From: Candidatus Saccharimonadota bacterium
Lineage (GTDB): Bacteria > Patescibacteriota > Saccharimonadia > Saccharimonadales > Saccharimonadaceae
Reading direction: 5' to 3'
Assembly: GCA_017515125.1 (NCBI GenBank)
Contig: JAFWHP010000053.1
Span: 1 to 23,648, forward strand
Length of the DNA stretch: 23,648 nt
The notes under the pieces are model-generated. The model did no database searches. It saw only the letters and a list, made by a program, of their open reading frames with translations, and was not told the DNA's origin. A program made the position numbers and the translations under genes. Positions 9,291-17,016 of the stretch are shown here, one piece after another (within the stretch, counting starts at the first letter, position 1; each line of letters starts with the position of its first letter).

Positions 9291-9420
9291 AATATATGAT
9301 TCATGCATCTTATGAGCTTCGCGACGTGGTAATCTGCGATTATGCTACACCGCTCCGCCCCTAAGGTGGTAAAATCAGAGATTTTGCCTTGATGTCCCTC
9401 AATGCTATGAATCATATATT
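9291..9420 (+). repeat. Structured dispersed repeat, copy A
   Basis: Closing arms AATATATGATTCAT (9291-9304) and ATGAATCATATATT (9407-9420) are perfectly complementary. After a one-base bulge GCAT/ATGC continues the stem. Inside lie the family core elements: GAGCTTCGC, GTGGTAATC/GATT, CCGCC-CCTAA-GGTGG, TAAAATC-AGA-GATTTTG and GATGTCCCTCAAT. The GGGA of the 5' core is altered to ATGA and the first internal hairpin has mismatches, so this is the most diverged full copy. Confidence 0.85.
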
Positions 9421-9479
9421 AAAGAATACGATATTATTAATAAATTGGGAAGACGGCAGATATAACTAGCTAAGCTGTG

Positions 9480-9609
9480 AAACCTAAAGACATCTATCTC
9501 GGGAGCTTCGCGGTGTGGTAATCTGCGATTATATCACACCGCTCCGCTTTTGCGGCGGCAAAATCATAGATTTTGCCTTGATGTCCCTCGATATGATGTC
9601 TTTAGGTTT
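9480..9609 (+). repeat. Structured dispersed repeat, copy B
   Basis: Arms AAACCTAAAGACATC (9480-9494) and GATGTCTTTAGGTTT (9595-9609) are perfectly complementary and unrelated to the arms of the other copies. Then a one-base bulge, TATC/GATA, a TC/TC internal loop and GGGA/TCCC. Internal hairpins: GCGGTGTG/CACACCGC, CCGC-TTTT-GCGG and GGCAAAATC-ATA-GATTTTGCC. It ends 47 nt before the pnp start codon. Confidence 0.85.
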
Positions 9610-9656
9610 GGTTTGGCTGGATATATCTGAGGTTTTCCCGAGAAAGGAATATTTTT

Positions 9657-11831
9657 ATGGAAATTATTAACCCTAATGGTAAGAAAACGGTGCGGGTTTC
9701 GACCGAATGGCTAGGGAGAGAGTTGTCACTTGAAGTTAAGCGAGTGGGATTTAGGACGACTTCGTCGGTCTTAGTGCGGTATGGAGATACTGTGGTGTTG
9801 GGCTCTGTAGTAGTGGGGACGAAGCCGGTGGTGCAGGATTTCTTTCCGTTGTCAATTGATTATGAAGAGAAATGGTATGCGGCGGGGAAGATTTCTGGGT
9901 CGCGGTTTATTAAACGAGAGGGAAAGCCGGCGGATGAAGCAGTGCTGGTCGGAAGATTAATTGATCGTCCGATAAGGCCGCTGTTTCCAAAGGGATATAG
10001 ACAAGAAATTCAGGTGGTTTGTACAGTGTTGTCAATGGATCCGTCGTTTAGGCCGGATTGTGTGGCTATGATAGCGGCTTCGTCGGCTTTGATGAACGCT
10101 GGGGTGCCGTTTGATGGGCCGATTGCCGGGATTCGGATTGGGCGAATCGGTGGCGAATTTAAGGGATTTTTGTCGCCAGAGGAGCGAGAAAGGTCGCCAA
10201 TGGATCTCGTAGTGGCTTGCAAAGACGGTAAGATTATGATGGTCGAAGCTGGGATGAAAGAAGTGCCAGAGGAGATGATTATAGAAGCGATGCACTGGGC
10301 GGTGGATAAAGTTCAGCCAGTGCTCGATTTGCAGAGAGAGCTAGCCAAGCAAGTCGCGGCGACTCCGCAAGAATATGAATTAGTGCTACCTTCGGAGGAG
10401 ATAATTGCTGAGGTGGCAGAGTGGACTTCTGGTAAATTTGGGTCGAAGATTCGGGGGAATGTGATGGAGCGAGCACAGATGCTGGACGATATTAAATATA
10501 AAATGCATGACGAGTTTGCTCTTTCAAAGGGCCAGGGGGAGACGGATAATGAGAAGGTAGCGTGGTATGATGAGAATCTGCGCGACGTATATGATCAAGC
10601 GTTTGAGCTTGCGGTATTTAAAGAGGTGCGGCGAGGAATCGTTGAGGAAGGGGTACGGCCGGATGGTCGGAAACTGAATGAAGTGCGACCTCTGTCGTCG
10701 CAGGTTGGTATTTTGCCGAGAGTGCATGGTTCGTCGCTTTTCACGCGGGGGGTAACTCAGGCGATGAACATCGTGACGTTAGCACCATTATCTTATTGTC
10801 AAGATGTGGACACAATGGAAGTAACTGATGGAAAACGACGATATATGCATCATTATAATGCACCGTCGTATACTGTAGGGGAGCCGGGTCGGATTGGTTC
10901 GCCAGGACGACGCGAGATTGGGCATGGGTATTTGGCTGAGCGGGCTTTGATCCCAGTATTGCCTGACGAGGAGGAGTTCCCGTATGCGATTCGGAGCGTG
11001 ACTGAGATTATGTCGCAGAACGGTTCGACTTCGATGGCGGCGACTTGCTCGTCTTGTATGGCTTTGATGGATGCGGGGGTGCCAATTAAACGACCAGTGT
11101 CAGGGGTAGCTATGGGGCTAATGGTGGATGTGCCAAAGGGGACGCCGATTGAGGCTTCGGATATTGATAAGGCTTATGTATTGACGGATTTGATGGATGC
11201 GGAAGATTTCGCGGGAGATATGGACTTTAAGGTGACTGGCACGACGGAAGGTGTGACGGCGCTCCAAATGGATATGAAGGTACATGGGTTGCCGGTCGAG
11301 ATTATGGAGAAGGCTTTGAAACAGTCGCATGAAGGTCGGATGTTTATCTTGGAGCATATTATGTCGGTAATTGATAAGCCGCGAGGAGAACTTTCTTCGT
11401 TTGCGCCGAGAATTGAGAAGATTAAGATTTCACAAGATAAAATCGGGGCAGTGATTGGGAAAGGCGGAGAGACTATTAATAAGATTACTTCTGAGACTGG
11501 GGCGGAGGTGGACATTTCGGAAGATGGGCTAGTGACAATCGCCGGGACGGATGCGGAGAAAATCGCTAAGGCGCTAGATTGGGTCAAAAGTTTGACTGAG
11601 GAGCCGGAGGTTGGGAAAATTTACGAAGGCACAGTGGTGACGATTAAAGATTTTGGCGCGTTTGTGAATATTCTCCCTGGGATTGATGGGATGCTACATA
11701 TCTCGCAGATTCGCGAGGGGAAGCGATTGAAGTCAGTGGACGAAGTGCTGAAAGTTGGTGACCGTGTAAAGGTGCGGTTGGTGGCGATTGACCACGGGAA
11801 ACTCAGTCTTTCAATGATCGGAGTGAAATAA
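9657..11831 (+). CDS. pnp: Polyribonucleotide nucleotidyltransferase (PNPase)
   Basis: 3'-5' phosphorolytic exoribonuclease of mRNA decay. The 724 residues hold two RNase PH domains. The first contains YAAGKISGSRFIKREGKPA and LIDRPIRPLFPKGY; the second contains GVRPDGRKLNEVRPL, SPGRREIGHGYLAERAL near residue 417 (phosphate binding), and DAEDFAGDMDFKVTGT near 515-525 with the metal-binding aspartates. A KH domain follows (KIGAVIGKGGETINKI, about 593) and then an S1 domain (GTVVTIKDFGAFVNILPGI, about 658-724). The protein is full length. AGAAAGGAA about 9 nt before the ATG is the ribosome site. The likely mRNA leader contains repeat copies A and B. An intrinsic terminator follows at 11852. Confidence 0.97.
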   Translation: MEIINPNGKKTVRVSTEWLGRELSLEVKRVGFRTTSSVLVRYGDTVVLGSVVVGTKPVVQDFFPLSIDYEEKWYAAGKISGSRFIKREGKPADEAVLVGRLIDRPIRPLFPKGYRQEIQVVCTVLSMDPSFRPDCVAMIAASSALMNAGVPFDGPIAGIRIGRIGGEFKGFLSPEERERSPMDLVVACKDGKIMMVEAGMKEVPEEMIIEAMHWAVDKVQPVLDLQRELAKQVAATPQEYELVLPSEEIIAEVAEWTSGKFGSKIRGNVMERAQMLDDIKYKMHDEFALSKGQGETDNEKVAWYDENLRDVYDQAFELAVFKEVRRGIVEEGVRPDGRKLNEVRPLSSQVGILPRVHGSSLFTRGVTQAMNIVTLAPLSYCQDVDTMEVTDGKRRYMHHYNAPSYTVGEPGRIGSPGRREIGHGYLAERALIPVLPDEEEFPYAIRSVTEIMSQNGSTSMAATCSSCMALMDAGVPIKRPVSGVAMGLMVDVPKGTPIEASDIDKAYVLTDLMDAEDFAGDMDFKVTGTTEGVTALQMDMKVHGLPVEIMEKALKQSHEGRMFILEHIMSVIDKPRGELSSFAPRIEKIKISQDKIGAVIGKGGETINKITSETGAEVDISEDGLVTIAGTDAEKIAKALDWVKSLTEEPEVGKIYEGTVVTIKDFGAFVNILPGIDGMLHISQIREGKRLKSVDEVLKVGDRVKVRLVAIDHGKLSLSMIGVK

Positions 11832-11851
11832 AGGTAACAGAGTAAATTTGG

Positions 11852-11880
11852 AGTCGGGTTTTGCGCCCGACTTTTGGTTT
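11852..11880 (+). terminator. Intrinsic terminator of pnp
   Basis: AGTCGGG (11852-11858) pairs with CCCGACT (11866-11872) around a 7-nt loop, followed by TTTTGGTTT. Confidence 0.85.
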
Positions 11881-11887
11881 GGCTATG

Positions 11888-11910
11888 AAAAAGCCCCGCT
11901 GCTGCGGGGC
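11888..11910 (-). terminator. Intrinsic terminator of the 181-aa orphan gene
   Basis: Read on the minus strand: GCCCCGC, loop AGCA, GCGGGGC, then TTTTTC. It lies 10 nt beyond the stop of the gene at 11921-12466. Confidence 0.9.
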
Positions 11911-11920
11911 GGAAGGTTCG

Positions 11921-12466
11921 TTACTGCTGTTGCGGAAGGAGGGCCTTGGCCCAAGGGGTTTTATATGCTACGTGGGGGATGGTCTTTGAATTCTTGATAG
12001 TCTCCTTGAACCAGTCCTTTGGTCCCATGAAAATGAGTCCGCGCGACAATTCGTGGCCATACTTGGCCAAGAGATAGTCGTGGTCATGGCATTTGCATAA
12101 TAATGCGAAGCCAAGGTTGCCAACCAAGTTGCTGCCCATGACGATCCTGTGATCATCAAAGGCCTGCTGGAGACCTTCAACGACAACATCTTTTACGATA
12201 TCGTTGTCGTCTGGGGTGCGGCTAGTGAACCGCTGATCCAGATTTCTCTGAATCAACATTTCTGCGGCAGACACCGCTAACTGAGCCAGGTTGATGGTCA
12301 GGCCAGTCTTGTATAAGTCGGCCAGAGTATTGTTGTCGACTCGACGCAATACGTCGCGCACCAGACAATTATTGAAATCCAGCTCTGGTAAACGATAGCT
12401 CAGGTTTCTGATGGAGCCGGCGTCCAATTTCTGTGCTAACTCCGACATTTTAAGGTTCTCGTACAT
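11921..12466 (-). CDS. Hypothetical 181-aa protein
   Basis: Begins MYENLKMSELAQKLDAGSIRNLSYRLPEL and ends PWAKALLPQQQ. Mostly predicted helix, no signal peptide or membrane segment. Possible features are an HxHDY cluster (CHDHDYLLAKYGHEL) that could bind metal, and LIFMGPKDWFKETI. I do not recognise a family. It has its own strong promoter (TTGACT-17 bp-TGC-TACAAT), GGAGG 7 nt before the ATG and a dedicated terminator, so it is an independent, probably expressed unit. Its codons use more C and CTG/CAG than the surrounding genes. Like the 104-aa gene it is a leadered minus-strand singleton set among leaderless housekeeping genes. Confidence 0.8.
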   Translation of the reverse strand: MYENLKMSELAQKLDAGSIRNLSYRLPELDFNNCLVRDVLRRVDNNTLADLYKTGLTINLAQLAVSAAEMLIQRNLDQRFTSRTPDDNDIVKDVVVEGLQQAFDDHRIVMGSNLVGNLGFALLCKCHDHDYLLAKYGHELSRGLIFMGPKDWFKETIKNSKTIPHVAYKTPWAKALLPQQQ

Positions 12467-12510
12467 AAATCTTCCTCCCCTCTTTGGAAGCAGTGAATAG
12501 TTATTCTATA

Positions 12511-12539
12511 ATTGTAGCATAAAACATTAAAATAGTCAA
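12511..12539 (-). promoter_or_regulatory. Promoter of the 181-aa orphan gene
   Basis: Minus strand TTGACT (12539-12534), 17-bp spacer, TGC-TACAAT (12516-12511). Predicted start near 12504, giving a leader of about 38 nt. Confidence 0.8.
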
Positions 12540-12557
12540 TATTATGATATAGACTTT

Positions 12558-12689
12558 GTTGCATAATTCGCAGTATTTCGGGAGCTCCGCAATGTGGTAA
12601 TCTTAGATTTTACCACATTGCTCCGCCCCTACGGCGGCAAAATGTAAAATTTTGCCTTTACGTCCCTCAATACTGACGAATTATGCAAC
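12558..12689 (+). repeat. Structured dispersed repeat, copy C
   Basis: Arms GTTGCATAATTCG (12558-12570) and CGAATTATGCAAC (12677-12689); after a one-base bulge CAGTATT/AATACTG, a TC/TC internal loop and GGGA/TCCC. Internal hairpins: GCAATGTGGTAA/TTACCACATTGC (12589-12600/12610-12621), CCGCC/GGCGG (12623-12627/12633-12637) and CAAAAT/ATTTTG (12638-12643/12649-12654). As RNA the outer stem could extend by four pairs including two G-U. The lepA -10 begins 11 nt after its right end. Confidence 0.9.
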
Positions 12690-12696
12690 GAGGCTA

Positions 12697-12705
12697 TGAT
12701 ATAAT
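12697..12705 (+). promoter_or_regulatory. Extended -10 of lepA (leaderless geometry)
   Basis: TGA-TATAAT, then 7 nt, then ATG at 12713. This argues against the in-frame ATG at 12683, which lies inside the arm of copy C. Confidence 0.7.
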
Positions 12706-12712
12706 AGAGAGG

Positions 12713-13246
12713 ATGGAAAGAAATCGGAATTTTTGTATTATAGCGCATATCGACCATGGGAAGTCGACGATTGCGGATAGGATGATGGAACTCACTGGGA
12801 CGGTTTCGAAGCGGGAGATGAAATCGCAGCTGCTTGATTCAATGGATCTGGAACGAGAGAAAGGGATTACGATTAAGCTGGCGCCAGTGACGATGTCTTG
12901 GAAAGGATATACTTTAAACTTGATTGATACGCCGGGGCATGTGGATTTCTCGTATGAGGTTTCAAGGTCGCTGGCGGCGGTAGAGATTGCGGTATTGGTA
13001 GTAGATGCGACGCAGGGGATACAGGCGCAGACGTTGGCAAATGTATATCTGGCCTTGGAGCAAGACCTCACGATTATTCCGGTAATTAATAAAGTGGATT
13101 TGCCGGCGGCGGATGTGCCTGGGGTATCGAAACAGATTATTAATCTACTAGGATGCAAACAGAGTGACATCATTGAAGTGTCTGGGAAAACTGGATTAAA
13201 TATTGATAAAATACTTGATGCGGTGGTGGCGCAGGGCGGGTCCTGA
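12713..13246 (+). CDS. lepA: LepA (elongation factor 4), N-terminal GTPase part, before insert
   Basis: LepA is a ribosome-associated translational GTPase. This 177-codon part holds G1 AHIDHGKST, the switch region [14 protein letters not shown]3 [17 protein letters not shown]4 NKVDLPAAD and G5 SGKTGLNI, all intact. It ends [11 protein letters not shown] followed by TGA at 13244. Normal LepA continues with an IPPP-type linker and then RALIFDS; the downstream part resumes at 13349 in the same frame, after a GC-rich insert. Together the two parts encode about 601 residues, the usual LepA length, apart from a missing linker of about ten residues. Start 13 nt before the GTPase core fits a -10 box 7 nt upstream. 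It may be joined to the second half at RNA or ribosome level, or be a broken gene. Confidence 0.9.
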
Positions 13247-13348
13247 CCAAATACCCCTTCCTCGGGCTGCTCCGGGGCGCACGCCCAACTCTTAGTCCCT
13301 TAGGAAGAGGCATTTTGGCCACCCGCCCATTCGGCCACCTGCGCGTCC
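13229..13348 (+). other. GC-rich, highly base-paired in-frame insert splitting lepA
   Basis: Between the GTPase domain and domain II of lepA lies a C-rich, GC-rich stretch unlike the purine-rich host gene. Nested complementarity: GCGCAGG/CCTGCGC (13229-13235/13338-13344), GCGGGT/ACCCGC (13236-13241/13321-13326, extendable to GGGCGGGT/ACCCGCCC in an alternative register), CCAAA/TTTGG (13247-13251/13314-13318), CTTCCT/AGGAAG (13257-13262/13302-13307), and an apical GGGCTGC with GCA-C-GCCC (13264-13270/13279-13286). In the lepA frame it has TGA at 13244 and TAG at 13301. The span from the stop to the resumption codon is 105 nt, so frame is kept. No recognisable group I or II intron core and no transposase. 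Confidence 0.75.
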
Positions 13349-14623
13349 ATGCCTACTCGGGCATTGATTTTTGACTCTTATTTTGATGATTATCGAGGAG
13401 TGGTGTTGTATGTAAGGGTGTTTGAAGGGGAGATACCTAAGAATGCGGAGATTTTGATGATGGCGGCGGGGGTGAAGGGGTTGGCGCTTGAGGTCGGGGT
13501 ATTGACGCCAAAAATGAGTCCGCGAGAGAAACTGTCGGCGGGAGAGATTGGATATATAGTGACGAATCTTAAAACAACGAGAGAGGCGAAGGTCGGTGAT
13601 ACAGTGACGTTGGCGAAGGGAGTGGAGATTCGGCGATTAGAAGACGGTGGGCATGAGATTGTAAAAGATGGCGAAATGATGGAGGCATTACCTGGATATA
13701 AGGAGGTGCTGCCATTTGTGTATGCGGGATTTTTTCCGGTTTCGAACGATCAGTATAAGGAGCTGAAGGAGGCGATCGAGAAATTAGCCTTATCAGACTC
13801 AGCGCTGAGATATGAGCCGGAAAATTCGCCGGTACTTGGATTTGGGTTGCGGATTGGGTTTTTGGGGCTACTTCATATGGATATTATTCGGGAAAGGCTG
13901 GAGCGGGAGTTTAAGTTGGACTTAATTGTGACTAATCCGTCGACGAATTATGAGGTTTTGATGGCGAACGGGGAGTTGATCGAGATCAAGTCTGCGGCGG
14001 ATTTGCCAGATATTTCGGAGGTGGCGGAAATTCGGGAGCCCTGGGTCAAGGGAGAGATTATTGTGCCGAAAGAGATGATTGGCGGGGTACTTAATTTAAT
14101 TAATACGAAGCGGGGGCGTCAGACGAATTTGTCGTATATTGAGAACCGGGCGGTGATTGATTTTGAGGCGCCGATGGCGAATTTGCTGACGGATTTTTAT
14201 GATCAGCTTAAATCAGTGACGAGCGGTTATGCGTCATTTAATTATGAGCTTGATGGGTATCGGGCGGAAGATTTGGTAAGGGTGGATTTCCTGGTTGGGG
14301 GGTCGAAGATTGATGCGCTTTCTGTAATGTGCCACAAAAGCGAGGCGGAGGCGATTGGGCGAGAAACGACGAAGAAATTAAAAGAAGTAATACCGCGGCA
14401 GAACTGGGAGGTGGCTCTGCAAGCGGCGATAGGGGCGAGGATACTAGCACGTGAGACGATAGGGGCGTATCGGAAAGATGTGACAGTAAAAATTCATACG
14501 GGGGATAGGGATAGAAAAGCGAAATTGCTCGAAAAACAGAAACGAGGGAAGGCACGAATGAAACGATTTGGAAAAATTGATATTCCTTCGGAAGCGTTTA
14601 CCGTGATGTTAAAGAGAGATTGA
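13349..14623 (+). CDS. lepA: LepA (elongation factor 4), C-terminal part, after insert
   Basis: 424 codons covering domains II, III, V and the LepA-specific C-terminal domain: RALIFDSYFDDYRGVVLYVRV, LEVGVLTPKMSPREKLSAGE, PFVYAGFFPVSNDQYKEL, LGFGLRIGFLGLLHMDII, VDFLVGGSKIDALSVM, IPRQNWEVALQAAIGARILA and the basic tail GDRDRKAKLLEKQKRGKARM. No frameshift or missing motif is visible, so the half is under coding constraint or was interrupted recently. The ATG at 13349 has neither a Shine-Dalgarno sequence nor a -10 box, which makes independent translation doubtful. The frame upstream is open back to the TAG at 13301. Confidence 0.9.
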   Translation: MPTRALIFDSYFDDYRGVVLYVRVFEGEIPKNAEILMMAAGVKGLALEVGVLTPKMSPREKLSAGEIGYIVTNLKTTREAKVGDTVTLAKGVEIRRLEDGGHEIVKDGEMMEALPGYKEVLPFVYAGFFPVSNDQYKELKEAIEKLALSDSALRYEPENSPVLGFGLRIGFLGLLHMDIIRERLEREFKLDLIVTNPSTNYEVLMANGELIEIKSAADLPDISEVAEIREPWVKGEIIVPKEMIGGVLNLINTKRGRQTNLSYIENRAVIDFEAPMANLLTDFYDQLKSVTSGYASFNYELDGYRAEDLVRVDFLVGGSKIDALSVMCHKSEAEAIGRETTKKLKEVIPRQNWEVALQAAIGARILARETIGAYRKDVTVKIHTGDRDRKAKLLEKQKRGKARMKRFGKIDIPSEAFTVMLKRD

Positions 14624-14654
14624 TAATTCTTTTTTACGTTTCGTTTAGTGATAC

Positions 14655-14802
14655 TCCTGTTGCATAATTCGCGCATTTCGGGAGCTTCGCAATGTGGTAA
14701 TCTTTGATTTTACCACATTGCTTCGCCTCTACGGCGAAAAAATCCGCCTAAAGGCGAATTTTTTCTTTATGTCCCTCAATGCTAGCGAATTATGCAACAG
14801 GA
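14655..14802 (+). repeat. Structured dispersed repeat, copy D
   Basis: Arms TCCTGTTGCATAATTCGC (14655-14672) and its exact complement (14785-14802), 18 bp. After a two-base bulge comes GCATT/AATGC, the TC/TC loop and GGGA/TCCC. Internal hairpins: GCAATGTGGTAA/TTACCACATTGC, CGCC-TCTAC-GGCG, and a larger 3' hairpin of about 13 bp with one mismatch (GAAAAAATCCGCC/GGCGAATTTTTTC) that replaces the usual one. It shares the GTTGCATAATTCG arm with copy C; the two flank lepA. Confidence 0.9.
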
Positions 14803-14844
14803 TGTCAATGCTCATAAACTATACAGCATTTTAATCGTGTTTTA

Positions 14845-14853
14845 TGATACAAT
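14845..14853 (+). promoter_or_regulatory. Extended -10 of the 168-aa gene (leaderless geometry)
   Basis: TGA-TACAAT, then 6 nt, then ATG at 14860. No -35 seen. Confidence 0.65.
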
Positions 14854-14859
14854 AAAGCT

Positions 14860-15366
14860 ATGAAGAGAATTAGTTTTATTGTTTGCTTGGTGGTAAGTTT
14901 GGTTACGGTGCCGGTGGGGGCGATATCGAAAGAGCAAGCGGCGGCGATTATCGACCATTGTGTAGCAATAAAAGATGATTTACGGGATGTGCAGAGGGCG
15001 GATGCAAGGGCGAGAGTTTACATTGGGGGAAAATATGAGATGATTTTGAATGGTTTTGTGAAGCCATTGAATCTGTATCTAGTCGAGAGGAATATTTCGA
15101 GGACAGACTTGGTCGAGAGCCAGAGCTTAATCTCTGAGACGAGAGGCGAGTTTGTAAACGATTATGTAGATTATCAGCAAGGTTTGGAGCAGTTAGTATC
15201 AATGGACTGCAAGGAGGATGCGGAGCAGTTTTATGATAAATTAGTGCGAGTTAGGAAAAAGAGGAGCAAAGTTGATCAGGATATGAAAAAAATGGATACG
15301 GTGCTCAATGAGTATAAGGTGAGGGTTTTGAAAATGAAGGAGGGTTTAGATGCGCGAAAAGAATAA
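14860..15366 (+). CDS. Secreted coiled-coil-like protein, hypothetical (168 aa)
   Basis: The N-terminus MKRISFIVCLVVSLVTVPVGA is a clear signal peptide, with cleavage expected near VGA-IS. The mature part is largely helical and charged, with two Cys residues (near DHCVAIKDD and SMDCKED) that could form a disulfide, and a C-terminal region (KLVRVRKKRSKVDQDMKKM) suited to a coiled coil. No known domain recognised. It overlaps the next gene by 17 nt and a good ribosome site for that gene lies inside it, so the two form an operon. The context of two more envelope proteins suggests a role at the cell surface; this is inference. Confidence 0.75.
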   Translation: MKRISFIVCLVVSLVTVPVGAISKEQAAAIIDHCVAIKDDLRDVQRADARARVYIGGKYEMILNGFVKPLNLYLVERNISRTDLVESQSLISETRGEFVNDYVDYQQGLEQLVSMDCKEDAEQFYDKLVRVRKKRSKVDQDMKKMDTVLNEYKVRVLKMKEGLDARKE

Positions 15367-15739
15367 GAAAAAAATAGAAAAAGGAGCGCGGAATTTGGTT
15401 GTACTTGGGGTACTTTCTACGGTGGTTGCGCTCACTACGACTGGAGTTGCTCTGGCGATTTACCATAATTCGGGCGATATATATTTGGATAGATCGCGGC
15501 CAGGATTTTTGCCAGATGAGGAAGAAATTCAGCAGGATGAGGGGGAGCGCGAGGACGATGATTATGTCTTCCAGAAGGATACAGTATTAGATACGGAGAA
15601 GATGGATGAGTTCTTGGAGAAATTACAGGAGGAAATTGATGCGATAAATGCTTATGAAAAGCCGTTTGGCGAGGAAGTATTGTCAGATGAGCGTTTGGGA
15701 ATTCCGACAACCGAGTCGGCGGCAGGAAAGAATGAATAA
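15350..15739 (+). CDS. Single-pass membrane protein, hypothetical (129 aa)
   Basis: A basic N-terminus (MREKNKKKIEKGARN) is followed by one hydrophobic segment, LVVLGVLSTVVALTTTGVAL, and an acidic extracytoplasmic tail rich in Glu/Asp. The positive-inside pattern predicts the tail outside. AAGGAGGG with 6-nt spacing marks the start, inside the upstream gene. No recognised domain. It sits between a secreted protein and a fibro-slime protein; the three probably act in the envelope together. Confidence 0.7.
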   Translation: MREKNKKKIEKGARNLVVLGVLSTVVALTTTGVALAIYHNSGDIYLDRSRPGFLPDEEEIQQDEGEREDDDYVFQKDTVLDTEKMDEFLEKLQEEIDAINAYEKPFGEEVLSDERLGIPTTESAAGKNE

Positions 15740-15742
15740 TGG

Positions 15743-15771
15743 TTGATTTTTGGCAGTAAAAGGATTATACT
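15743..15771 (+). promoter_or_regulatory. Promoter of the fibro-slime gene
   Basis: TTGATT (15743-15748), 17-bp spacer, TATACT (15766-15771). Start expected near 15778, giving a leader of about 7 nt before ATG 15785. It begins 3 nt after the stop of the preceding gene. Confidence 0.55.
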
Positions 15772-15784
15772 TAAACTAGGAATT

Positions 15785-16921
15785 ATGAAAAAACAGCAGA
15801 AAAAAGCAAATAGACAGGGGGAGATGCGGATTTTTGGAGTAACTTCTTTGATTGCTTTTGGCATAGTGTTGGTTCTTTTGGTGCTTGGGATGTCGGTAAC
15901 AATTAAGGGGATTAAAGATGAGTCGGTCTCTAGGTCTTCGGATGCGATTTTGGCTAGTGCGGGACTTTCGGAAGATAAGGATGTGTTTTTGACTGCGGTT
16001 TATTATGACCAGCGGGCGGATGAGTGTGTGAATTTGTATAGCGCGAAGAACGAAGCTCTAGAAGCACGTGAATTTGAGTGGAGTGGGTGCGGTTACTATG
16101 GCAAAGAGATAGAGAAAGGATTAGCGGATTTTGAGCTGTCGGAAGAAAAAGTGCCAGTTTTGTCAGCGGGGAAGATGACTCCTAATCGCGGTCTTTCGGG
16201 GAGCGAAAGATGGTTCAAGCCTGTGGAGGGGAAGAGTGCGAGTTTTCTTGGAACTTTGGGATTGAAATATGAAAAGGAGGGGACGAGATTTTATTTCTTA
16301 AGAGATGAGTTTTATCCGCTAGATGATGTGATGTTTAGCGAAGGCGATTTTGTCAATAAAGATGGGCATAACCATTTATTTACACTGAGTTTTGCGGTGC
16401 CATTTACGGTATTAAATAATGGTAATGAGGTGTTTGAGATAACGGCGGACGACGATACGTTTGTCTACGTGGATGATAAGTTGGCGATTGACATGGGCGG
16501 AGTACACGATGCGAAAACTGGTAGATTTACGATTTCGAAAGATGGGGAGGTGTACGCCGGTGTGGATGGAGAGGACATGGCGTTTACAGGGGTACGGTTG
16601 AAGGAGGGGGGAGCATCATCAATTAGGGTTTTTCATGCTGATAGAGATGCGGAAGATTCAGTGTTTGGGGTAAACTTTATTGGCATGAATGTGAGTTTTG
16701 TAGATAATTCAAAATTAGCGCGAGAGAATAATGGAGTGCAGATTGCATACGATCCAACGGATCCGGGGTATGAAGCGCCTTTGGGAGAAAGCATGGTGGT
16801 AGAGCCAAATAATTCGAAGGGTTTAATGATTATGGTGGCGATTGAAGGGGTAATGGTAGTGGTGTTTGCTGTGCTCGTGGCGATTGCGGCGAAAATGGTA
16901 GTCAAACGTAAAGTGGCGTAA
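15785..16921 (+). CDS. Membrane-anchored fibro-slime (PA14-like) domain protein
   Basis: 378 residues. A short basic N-terminus is followed by a membrane segment (GVTSLIAFGIVLVLLVLGM), a large extracellular part, and a second membrane segment near the C-terminus (LMIMVAIEGVMVVVFAVLVA) ending in basic KMVVKRKVA. The stretch FEITADDDTFVYVDDKLAI with DMGGVHDAKTGRF is the hallmark of the fibro-slime/PA14-type carbohydrate-binding fold, where consecutive aspartates bind calcium and the aromatic-glycine loop follows. Substrate unknown; surface adhesion or glycan binding is a reasonable inference. Start at 15785 is preferred because an upstream TTG start at 15743 would translate the promoter. A 3' remnant of the structured repeat lies just after the stop. 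Confidence 0.8.
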   Translation: MKKQQKKANRQGEMRIFGVTSLIAFGIVLVLLVLGMSVTIKGIKDESVSRSSDAILASAGLSEDKDVFLTAVYYDQRADECVNLYSAKNEALEAREFEWSGCGYYGKEIEKGLADFELSEEKVPVLSAGKMTPNRGLSGSERWFKPVEGKSASFLGTLGLKYEKEGTRFYFLRDEFYPLDDVMFSEGDFVNKDGHNHLFTLSFAVPFTVLNNGNEVFEITADDDTFVYVDDKLAIDMGGVHDAKTGRFTISKDGEVYAGVDGEDMAFTGVRLKEGGASSIRVFHADRDAEDSVFGVNFIGMNVSFVDNSKLARENNGVQIAYDPTDPGYEAPLGESMVVEPNNSKGLMIMVAIEGVMVVVFAVLVAIAAKMVVKRKVA

Positions 16922-16930
16922 GTCGCGACT

Positions 16931-16985
16931 GTGGCAAAATATAAAATTTTGCCTTTACGTCCCTCAATACTGACGAATTATGCAA
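16931..16985 (+). repeat. Structured dispersed repeat, copy E (3' remnant)
   Basis: Matches the 3' half of copy C almost base for base: GGCAAAAT/ATTTTGCC hairpin (16933-16940/16946-16953), TTTACGTCCCTCAATACTG and CGAATTATGCAA. The 5' arm and the first two hairpins are missing. It begins about 10 nt after the stop of the fibro-slime gene. Confidence 0.85.
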
Positions 16986-17016
16986 TAAGGCCAAGAATAA
17001 TTGATTGATAATCGTG

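Follow-up and report, generated by a model that had tools for sequence, protein, structure and literature searches.

Cloverleaf elements of a Saccharibacteria genus as an IS5-type MITE with an ordinary origin and an unusual afterlife

The window analysed here, a 23,648-nucleotide stretch of DNA from a Candidatus Saccharimonadota bacterium taken at its full length, holds four copies (A to D) and one remnant (E) of a single element, whose common layout is evident from the sequence and from a covariance model. There is a strong case that these elements are an IS5-type MITE, ordinary in origin and unusual in afterlife. At a probability of about 0.8, we hold that their IS5-family (IS903-like) ends make them a MITE and that the two arms of their long closing stem change together at the DNA level, mainly through template switching.

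Copies, fold and extent of the family

The original prediction of four copies and a remnant with one layout was confirmed, as the covariance model matches A, B, C and D. The features are listed in window coordinates.

9291..9420, plus strand: copy A, with diverged closing stem AATATATGATTCAT/ATGAATCATATATT (model 113.8 bits; fold z −3.6)
9480..9609, plus strand: copy B, with closing stem AAACCTAAAGACATC/GATGTCTTTAGGTTT unlike the terminal repeat (127.9 bits; fold z −10.3)
12544..12551, no strand: left target site duplication of copy C, 8 bp, ATGATATA (C is among the 5 near-consensus copies, of 33, in which 7 or more of 8 bases match at the expected offsets)
12552..12695, plus strand: copy C, full element between the target duplications, 144 bp (ends fixed by the duplication)
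12558..12689, plus strand: model match of copy C (153.2 bits)
12552..12571, plus strand: left terminal inverted repeat of copy C, GACTTTGTTGCATAATTCGC, which doubles as the closing stem's outer arm (sequence)
12589..12621, plus strand: hairpin 1 of copy C (GCAATGTGGTAATC...GATTTTACCACATTGC), with strong covariation across copies (RNAalifold, pair counts)
12623..12637, plus strand: hairpin 2 of copy C, CCGCC/GGCGG (sequence; three pairs in the RNAalifold consensus)
12636..12656, plus strand: hairpin 3 of copy C (GGCAAAAT/ATTTTGCC) (folds of the single copy and of the consensus)
12676..12695, minus strand: right terminal inverted repeat of copy C (12678-12695 on the minus strand, 2 mismatches)
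12696..12703, no strand: right target site duplication of copy C, 8 bp, ATGATATA (sequence)
14659..14798, plus strand: copy D, with a longer replacement hairpin 3 (140 bits; alignment)
16933..16992 (about), plus strand: remnant E, a 3' portion spanning hairpin 3 through the right terminal repeat (blastn)

Positions 12552-12569 of copy C differ from GGCNTTGTTGCATAATTC by 1 mismatch, and the first two bases of its hairpin 3 are able to pair in hairpin 2 instead. Remnant E is 95% identical to positions 87-145 of the query window:12550-12700, with its right terminal repeat at 16975-16992. Copy B lies upstream of an ORF at 9657. No target duplication was seen at copy A, and neither tRNA nor tmRNA was found in the window. 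Copies A and B (window 9291-9609) stand about 60 bases apart with similar cores and unlike closing stems, as if a local duplication had given one copy and the stems had drifted afterwards. A reading frame at 12683-14623 (one frame), which we take to be lepA, is broken at window 13226-13365 by a GC-rich palindrome of roughly 100 bases; it contains two in-frame stops, folds at −62.8 kcal/mol and looks like another inserted palindrome.

Each of the four copies was folded as single-stranded DNA and compared with 200 shuffles, which gave z scores of about −10 for B, C and D and −3.6 for A; for none of the four was any of the 200 shuffles as stable as the native copy. RNAalifold, applied to 14 copies from the same genome, returned the long closing stem, a GGGA/TCCC helix and three hairpins. 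The predicted four-way-junction layout with covarying helices is thereby borne out, also by pair counts over the family, and the covariation check proposed with it found at least one two-sided, pairing-preserving change in 25 of the 47 consensus pairs among these 14 copies. Rfam families gave no match to the window at E values up to 1. In six own-genome loci, the loop of hairpin 1 carries about 72 extra bases.

Further copies had been expected in this genome and its relatives, and they were found. The draft genome of origin (520,584 bases in 56 contigs, 69% complete) gave 28 covariance-model matches at E values up to 0.1, and a blastn search with copy C as the query returned 101 pieces (E up to 1), a number that includes copy C itself, fragments and antisense matches of the palindrome; many of the blastn matches lie at contig ends. 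Across the genus, the model detected the family in 21 of 100 genomes (E up to 0.1). At family level, 3 of 151 genomes were positive (E up to 0.01), all three in this genus, and the element was seen in none of the 60 other genera sampled at that threshold. These genus and family searches applied stricter filters and scored no more than 34 or 22 candidates in each genome, so that weak copies may have gone undetected. From 177 model-aligned rows, 153 distinct copies were taken for comparison; where uncut by a contig or locus end, the model match spans 94-184 bp, which is too short to encode a transposase.

A scan of the species collection for the core pattern yielded 35 stretches, of which 33 are titled Saccharibacteria, one "uncultured bacterium" and one Acidobacteriaceae. 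The last (L072) was dropped as a member, since the covariance model gives no match there. Ruminant gut samples are named in 23 of the 35 titles. A literature search over titles and the starts of abstracts found, among the matches listed, no published description of the family. In a subfamily of six loci the similarity extends into the flanks (agtggcaccacaa...), which suggests that a larger repeat carries these copies.

Terminal repeats and target duplications

The element ends in GGCCTTGTTGCATAATTC or close variants, and the terminal GGCCTTGTTGCATAATTC of sister copies equals, at 18 of 18 bp, both ends of a complete IS5-family insertion sequence at locus L262 in the same genus. A match to an insertion sequence end, which the original prediction had named as an outcome that would speak against it and had not seen, therefore exists. 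Its statement that no obvious target duplication is present did not hold either, as copy C is flanked on both sides by the 8-bp ATGATATA. Its interpretation thus survives in part: the family is real, its junction layout and covariation are confirmed and more copies exist, but a duplication and an insertion-sequence match were found and the RNA reading is disfavoured by the pair counts given below.

Target duplications were assessed at a fixed offset in 148 copies with sufficient flank, comprising 33 with near-consensus arms and 115 older ones. At least 7 of 8 bases matched in 5 of the 33 near-consensus copies, against a control mean of 0.06 and maximum of 1 (200 shuffles), and in 1 of the 115 older copies (control mean 0.32, maximum 2). 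Their presence in young copies and rarity in old ones is expected if the duplications decay. When the offset was left free, perfect 8-mers were found in 7 of 147 copies, with a control mean of 0.75.

DDE_Tnp_1 gave four matches in 3 of the 100 genus genomes, and DDE_Tnp_1_5 was found in 2 of the 100. Three of the four DDE_Tnp_1 loci are flanked by ends of the element type: GGCCTTGTTGCATAATTC occurs twice in L262, GGCCTTGTTGCATAATTA twice in L261, and L263 has GGTGTTGTTGAATAATTA and GGCGTTGTTGAATAATTA together with a transposase that contains an internal stop. The fourth locus, L265, has ends that are not of this type. For the L261 and L262 transposases, scores exceed the cut-off of NF033579, "IS5 family transposase", and there are also matches to Pfam DDE_Tnp_1 and DDE_Tnp_1_5; by eye, the two insertion sequences are bordered by the 8-bp duplications TAGCGTCC and CGTATTAG. 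IS903B of the IS5 family is given ends GGCTTTGTTGAATAAATC and a 9-bp repeat (PMC10569121), which differs from the 8-bp repeats here.

IS5-family transposases are rare in the genus. DDE_Tnp_1 was not found in the 69% complete genome of origin, and only one of the 21 element-bearing genomes has a detected IS5-family transposase; we count this rarity against the preferred explanation. Two other drivers were considered and rejected. The IS1595 transposase domain PF12762 occurs in none of the 100 genus genomes. IS6 was initially suspected from the GTTGCA ends, and PF13610 reached its cut-off in none of 13 genomes, with weak matches below it in 2 of the 13.

Eight further loci of the genome of origin hold core-less mini-elements or composites; in the latter, a longer palindromic region of about 300 bp is bordered by mini- or full elements. 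One mini-element of 55 bp lacks the core and has its own 8-bp repeat, CTTTCGAA, so the ends seem sufficient for insertion. A second MITE-like family, seen at ten loci of another genome, has ends of the same kind (GGCGTTGTTGCATAAATC/GGCATTGTTGCATAATTA) and a different core; 9-bp direct repeats were noted by eye at several of its copies, and one copy is inserted within a copy of the cloverleaf family.

Coordinated change in the two arms of the closing stem

Drift of the arms from the terminal-repeat consensus was measured in 147 copies. Between 0 and 10 of the 12 left-arm positions differ from it and the right arm has changed to about the same extent; the mean number of pairs held nevertheless stays between 10.4 and 12 of 12 at every drift level. 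Detection bias was controlled with loci picked out by their core pattern alone, whatever their stem. Among the 34 scorable loci of this kind, 31 reach a stem score of at least 11, compared with a control mean of 8.0 for arms taken from different loci. The three that fall below are the non-member L072 and two loci with shortened cores, L062 and L073, where fixed windows miss the paired ends. A sequence-only core profile recovered 142 complete cores, 141 of them known and 138 with a stem score of at least 11; since this profile derives from the same copies and was applied to model-fetched loci, the pattern-found loci are the better control.

Copies at matching places, identified by flank similarity, allowed the same site to be compared between genomes, and there the stem sequences differ while pairing is kept. 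In 14 such comparisons (13 between genomes and one duplicate within G206), 41 two-sided, pairing-preserving changes were counted, against 4.1 expected if the arms were independent; three comparisons share the same dus loci, so together with the G206 duplicate the 14 are not independent events. The pair L166/L175 was excluded from these totals, as the model alignment is out of register there. The two-sided changes are clustered, with 14 adjacent against 9.2 expected (P 0.02). Matching pairs of the cloverleaf family include no core inverted with both flanks flipped, and eight matches on one flank.

One site lies within a protein gene, which we take to be that of tRNA-dihydrouridine synthase (dus). 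Thirty-one dus loci were examined at protein level: L032 and the best 30 of the 97 matches that 95 of 100 genomes gave. Five carry the cloverleaf element in frame, one of them with a shortened core; in 14 another palindrome occupies this position, and 12 have neither. The 19 filled sites have stem scores of 12-22, and the 12 empty ones score 3-8 over shorter stretches. In old copies the closing stem has been rewritten, even within this gene. The other dus palindrome encodes peptides such as SRSIRDNGSE..SEP..DGREREGDEK, and its stem sequence varies between the 14 loci and still pairs. The orientation of its core is the same in 12 of the 14; at the remaining two, L218 and L225, the reversed core fits better (15 against 8 and 19 against 9), which arm-mediated inversion or a separate insertion would give, in a palindrome other than the cloverleaf family.

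Template switching between inverted arms is a known route to paired arms in the literature (PMC8794818, PMC8604942, PMC6649704). The excess of two-sided changes, their clustering and the two reversed dus cores were counted in its favour. Most likely, an IS5-family (IS903-like) transposase acting in trans inserts the non-coding element and leaves an 8-bp target duplication. Both terminal repeats double as the arms of the long closing stem, enclosing the three-hairpin core. Once the element is in place, its duplication and terminal sequence decay while the arms co-change, and the palindrome persists with a new sequence. We infer that this co-change arises in the DNA itself, chiefly when replication switches template from one arm to the other (quasipalindrome correction).

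Competing explanations and meaning

Template-switch correction would account for part of the unusual behaviour of the closing stem. The closing stem is interrupted beside the GGGA/TCCC helix by an opposed T-C/T-C loop, which blanket palindrome correction would close. According to the model alignment, 146 of 150 scorable copies retain the two mismatches, 1 has a single one and 3 have neither (3 of the 153 copies being unscorable; a cruder count gave 134 of 137). The open loop is thus counted against the preferred explanation, as are the conserved joints, the absence of inverted cores and the G-T lean of the inner hairpins given below. At matching places, identity over 12 pairs is 91.7% for unpaired core bases, 84.5% for flanks and 73.2% for the outer stem; over all 15 pairs, it is 89.3%, 84.3% and 68.6%, respectively. 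The smaller set omits L166/L175, window-D/L170 and L016/L112, of which the latter two may be separate insertions. Stems accordingly change faster than the flanks and joints more slowly. The slowness of the joints could reflect either renewal of the core by conversion between copies or selection on the joint. These observations, together with helices that vary yet pair and show no overall G-U preference, favour a possible but doubtful alternative in which folded DNA (a four-way junction with fixed joints, as a cruciform or a single-strand hairpin) is itself selected, for example as a putative binding site of a host or element protein, and the IS5-like ends are only its vehicle. Against it stand the core-less mini-element with its own target duplication, the restriction of the element to a minority of genus genomes and the possibility that gene conversion between copies also conserves joints. 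In a more specific form, which we consider rather unlikely, the cloverleaf would be a functional folded-DNA module. Its helices could have almost any sequence, selection would fix the unpaired joints and the open T-C/T-C loop, IS5-type ends would move it between sites, and a putative Saccharibacteria protein would recognise it.

Conserved unpaired bases and covarying helices would equally be expected of a small RNA or cis-regulator whose secondary structure is selected. Gene context permits transcription in some cases: neighbours are arranged ++ at 40, +- at 37, -- at 28 and -+ at 25 of the 153 copies, with 10 inside a gene and 13 unclear, so that 68 lie between co-directional neighbours and could be co-transcribed. 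A selected transcript should, however, tolerate G-U and avoid A-C on the transcribed strand, and no general G-U excess is seen. The 7064 helix cells comprise 6536 Watson-Crick, 141 G-T, 155 A-C and 232 other combinations, counts in which related copies are not independent. Transcript sense does not alter this, as the 41 copies forward with their neighbours or host gene have 42 G-T and 42 A-C and the 37 backward copies 30 G-T and 33 A-C; counted in transcript sense, the two sets together give 75 G-T against 72 A-C. Outer helices have 67 G-T against 113 A-C; only the inner hairpins lean the other way (74 against 42), and 27 of those 74 fall at one hairpin-3 pair. This symmetry indicates that pairing is probably maintained at the DNA level, and it makes folded RNA, which the original prediction had proposed as one object of selection, an unlikely explanation. 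Given also the mixed gene context, the lack of an Rfam match in the window and the transposon-type terminal repeats with target duplications, we regard selection on an RNA fold as highly improbable. A selfish element like the Rickettsia palindromic elements (RPEs), specialised for in-frame insertion in protein genes, is likewise improbable. The elements are palindromic, 10 of 153 copies lie within a long ORF, 9 of these on one strand (4 of the 9 at the same dus site), and the dus gene is filled in frame at the loci described above; yet 143 of the 153 lie outside such ORFs, and the ends are those of an IS5-family element.

The preferred reading, an IS5-type MITE, was set beside known systems. 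Like IS5-family bacterial MITEs, the elements are short, non-coding and dispersed, with no transposase of their own (copy C is 144 bp; 153 distinct copies), their young copies have target duplications of the same 8-bp length as the two insertion sequences, and they share their terminal inverted repeats with an autonomous IS5-family element of this genus. They differ in a complex interior (GGGA/TCCC helix plus three hairpins) that is kept across species and in a closing stem that is still paired after its sequence has been replaced. Integron attC sites keep their structure while stem sequence varies, conserve unpaired bases and have an R box GTTRRRY. The variable stems, kept structure and conserved unpaired bases of our elements resemble attC by this description; an attC site was rejected, as the GTTGCAT/ATGCAAC ends do not fit the R box, and 8-bp duplications with DDE-type ends are present in place of an integrase site.

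RPEs, compared here by description, are also palindromes of about 100-150 bp, some of them in frame in conserved protein genes (PMC2229807, PMC10969869), whereas our copies lie mostly outside genes and have IS5-like ends. RPEs are reported to lose repeat identity over time (PMC6649704, citing others), a decay of pairing with age that is not matched by the 10.4-12 of 12 pairs held here at every drift level. Coding palindromes of nematomorph mitochondria are likewise inverted repeats within genes, with several midpoints common between species, and template switching is discussed as their mechanism; the relevant parts of that account do not describe them as dispersed mobile copies with a common core (PMC6649704).

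Covariation is usually read as proof of functional RNA. The present family is a natural case of strong covariation that lacks an overall G-U signature and arises in mobile-element copies that have remained in place, one of them inside a protein gene; it warns against relying on covariation alone. Copies at matching places offer a means to separate template-switch correction from selection on folded DNA. For the organisms themselves, the family adds a small transposon that is common in one Saccharibacteria genus and comes mostly from ruminant gut samples.
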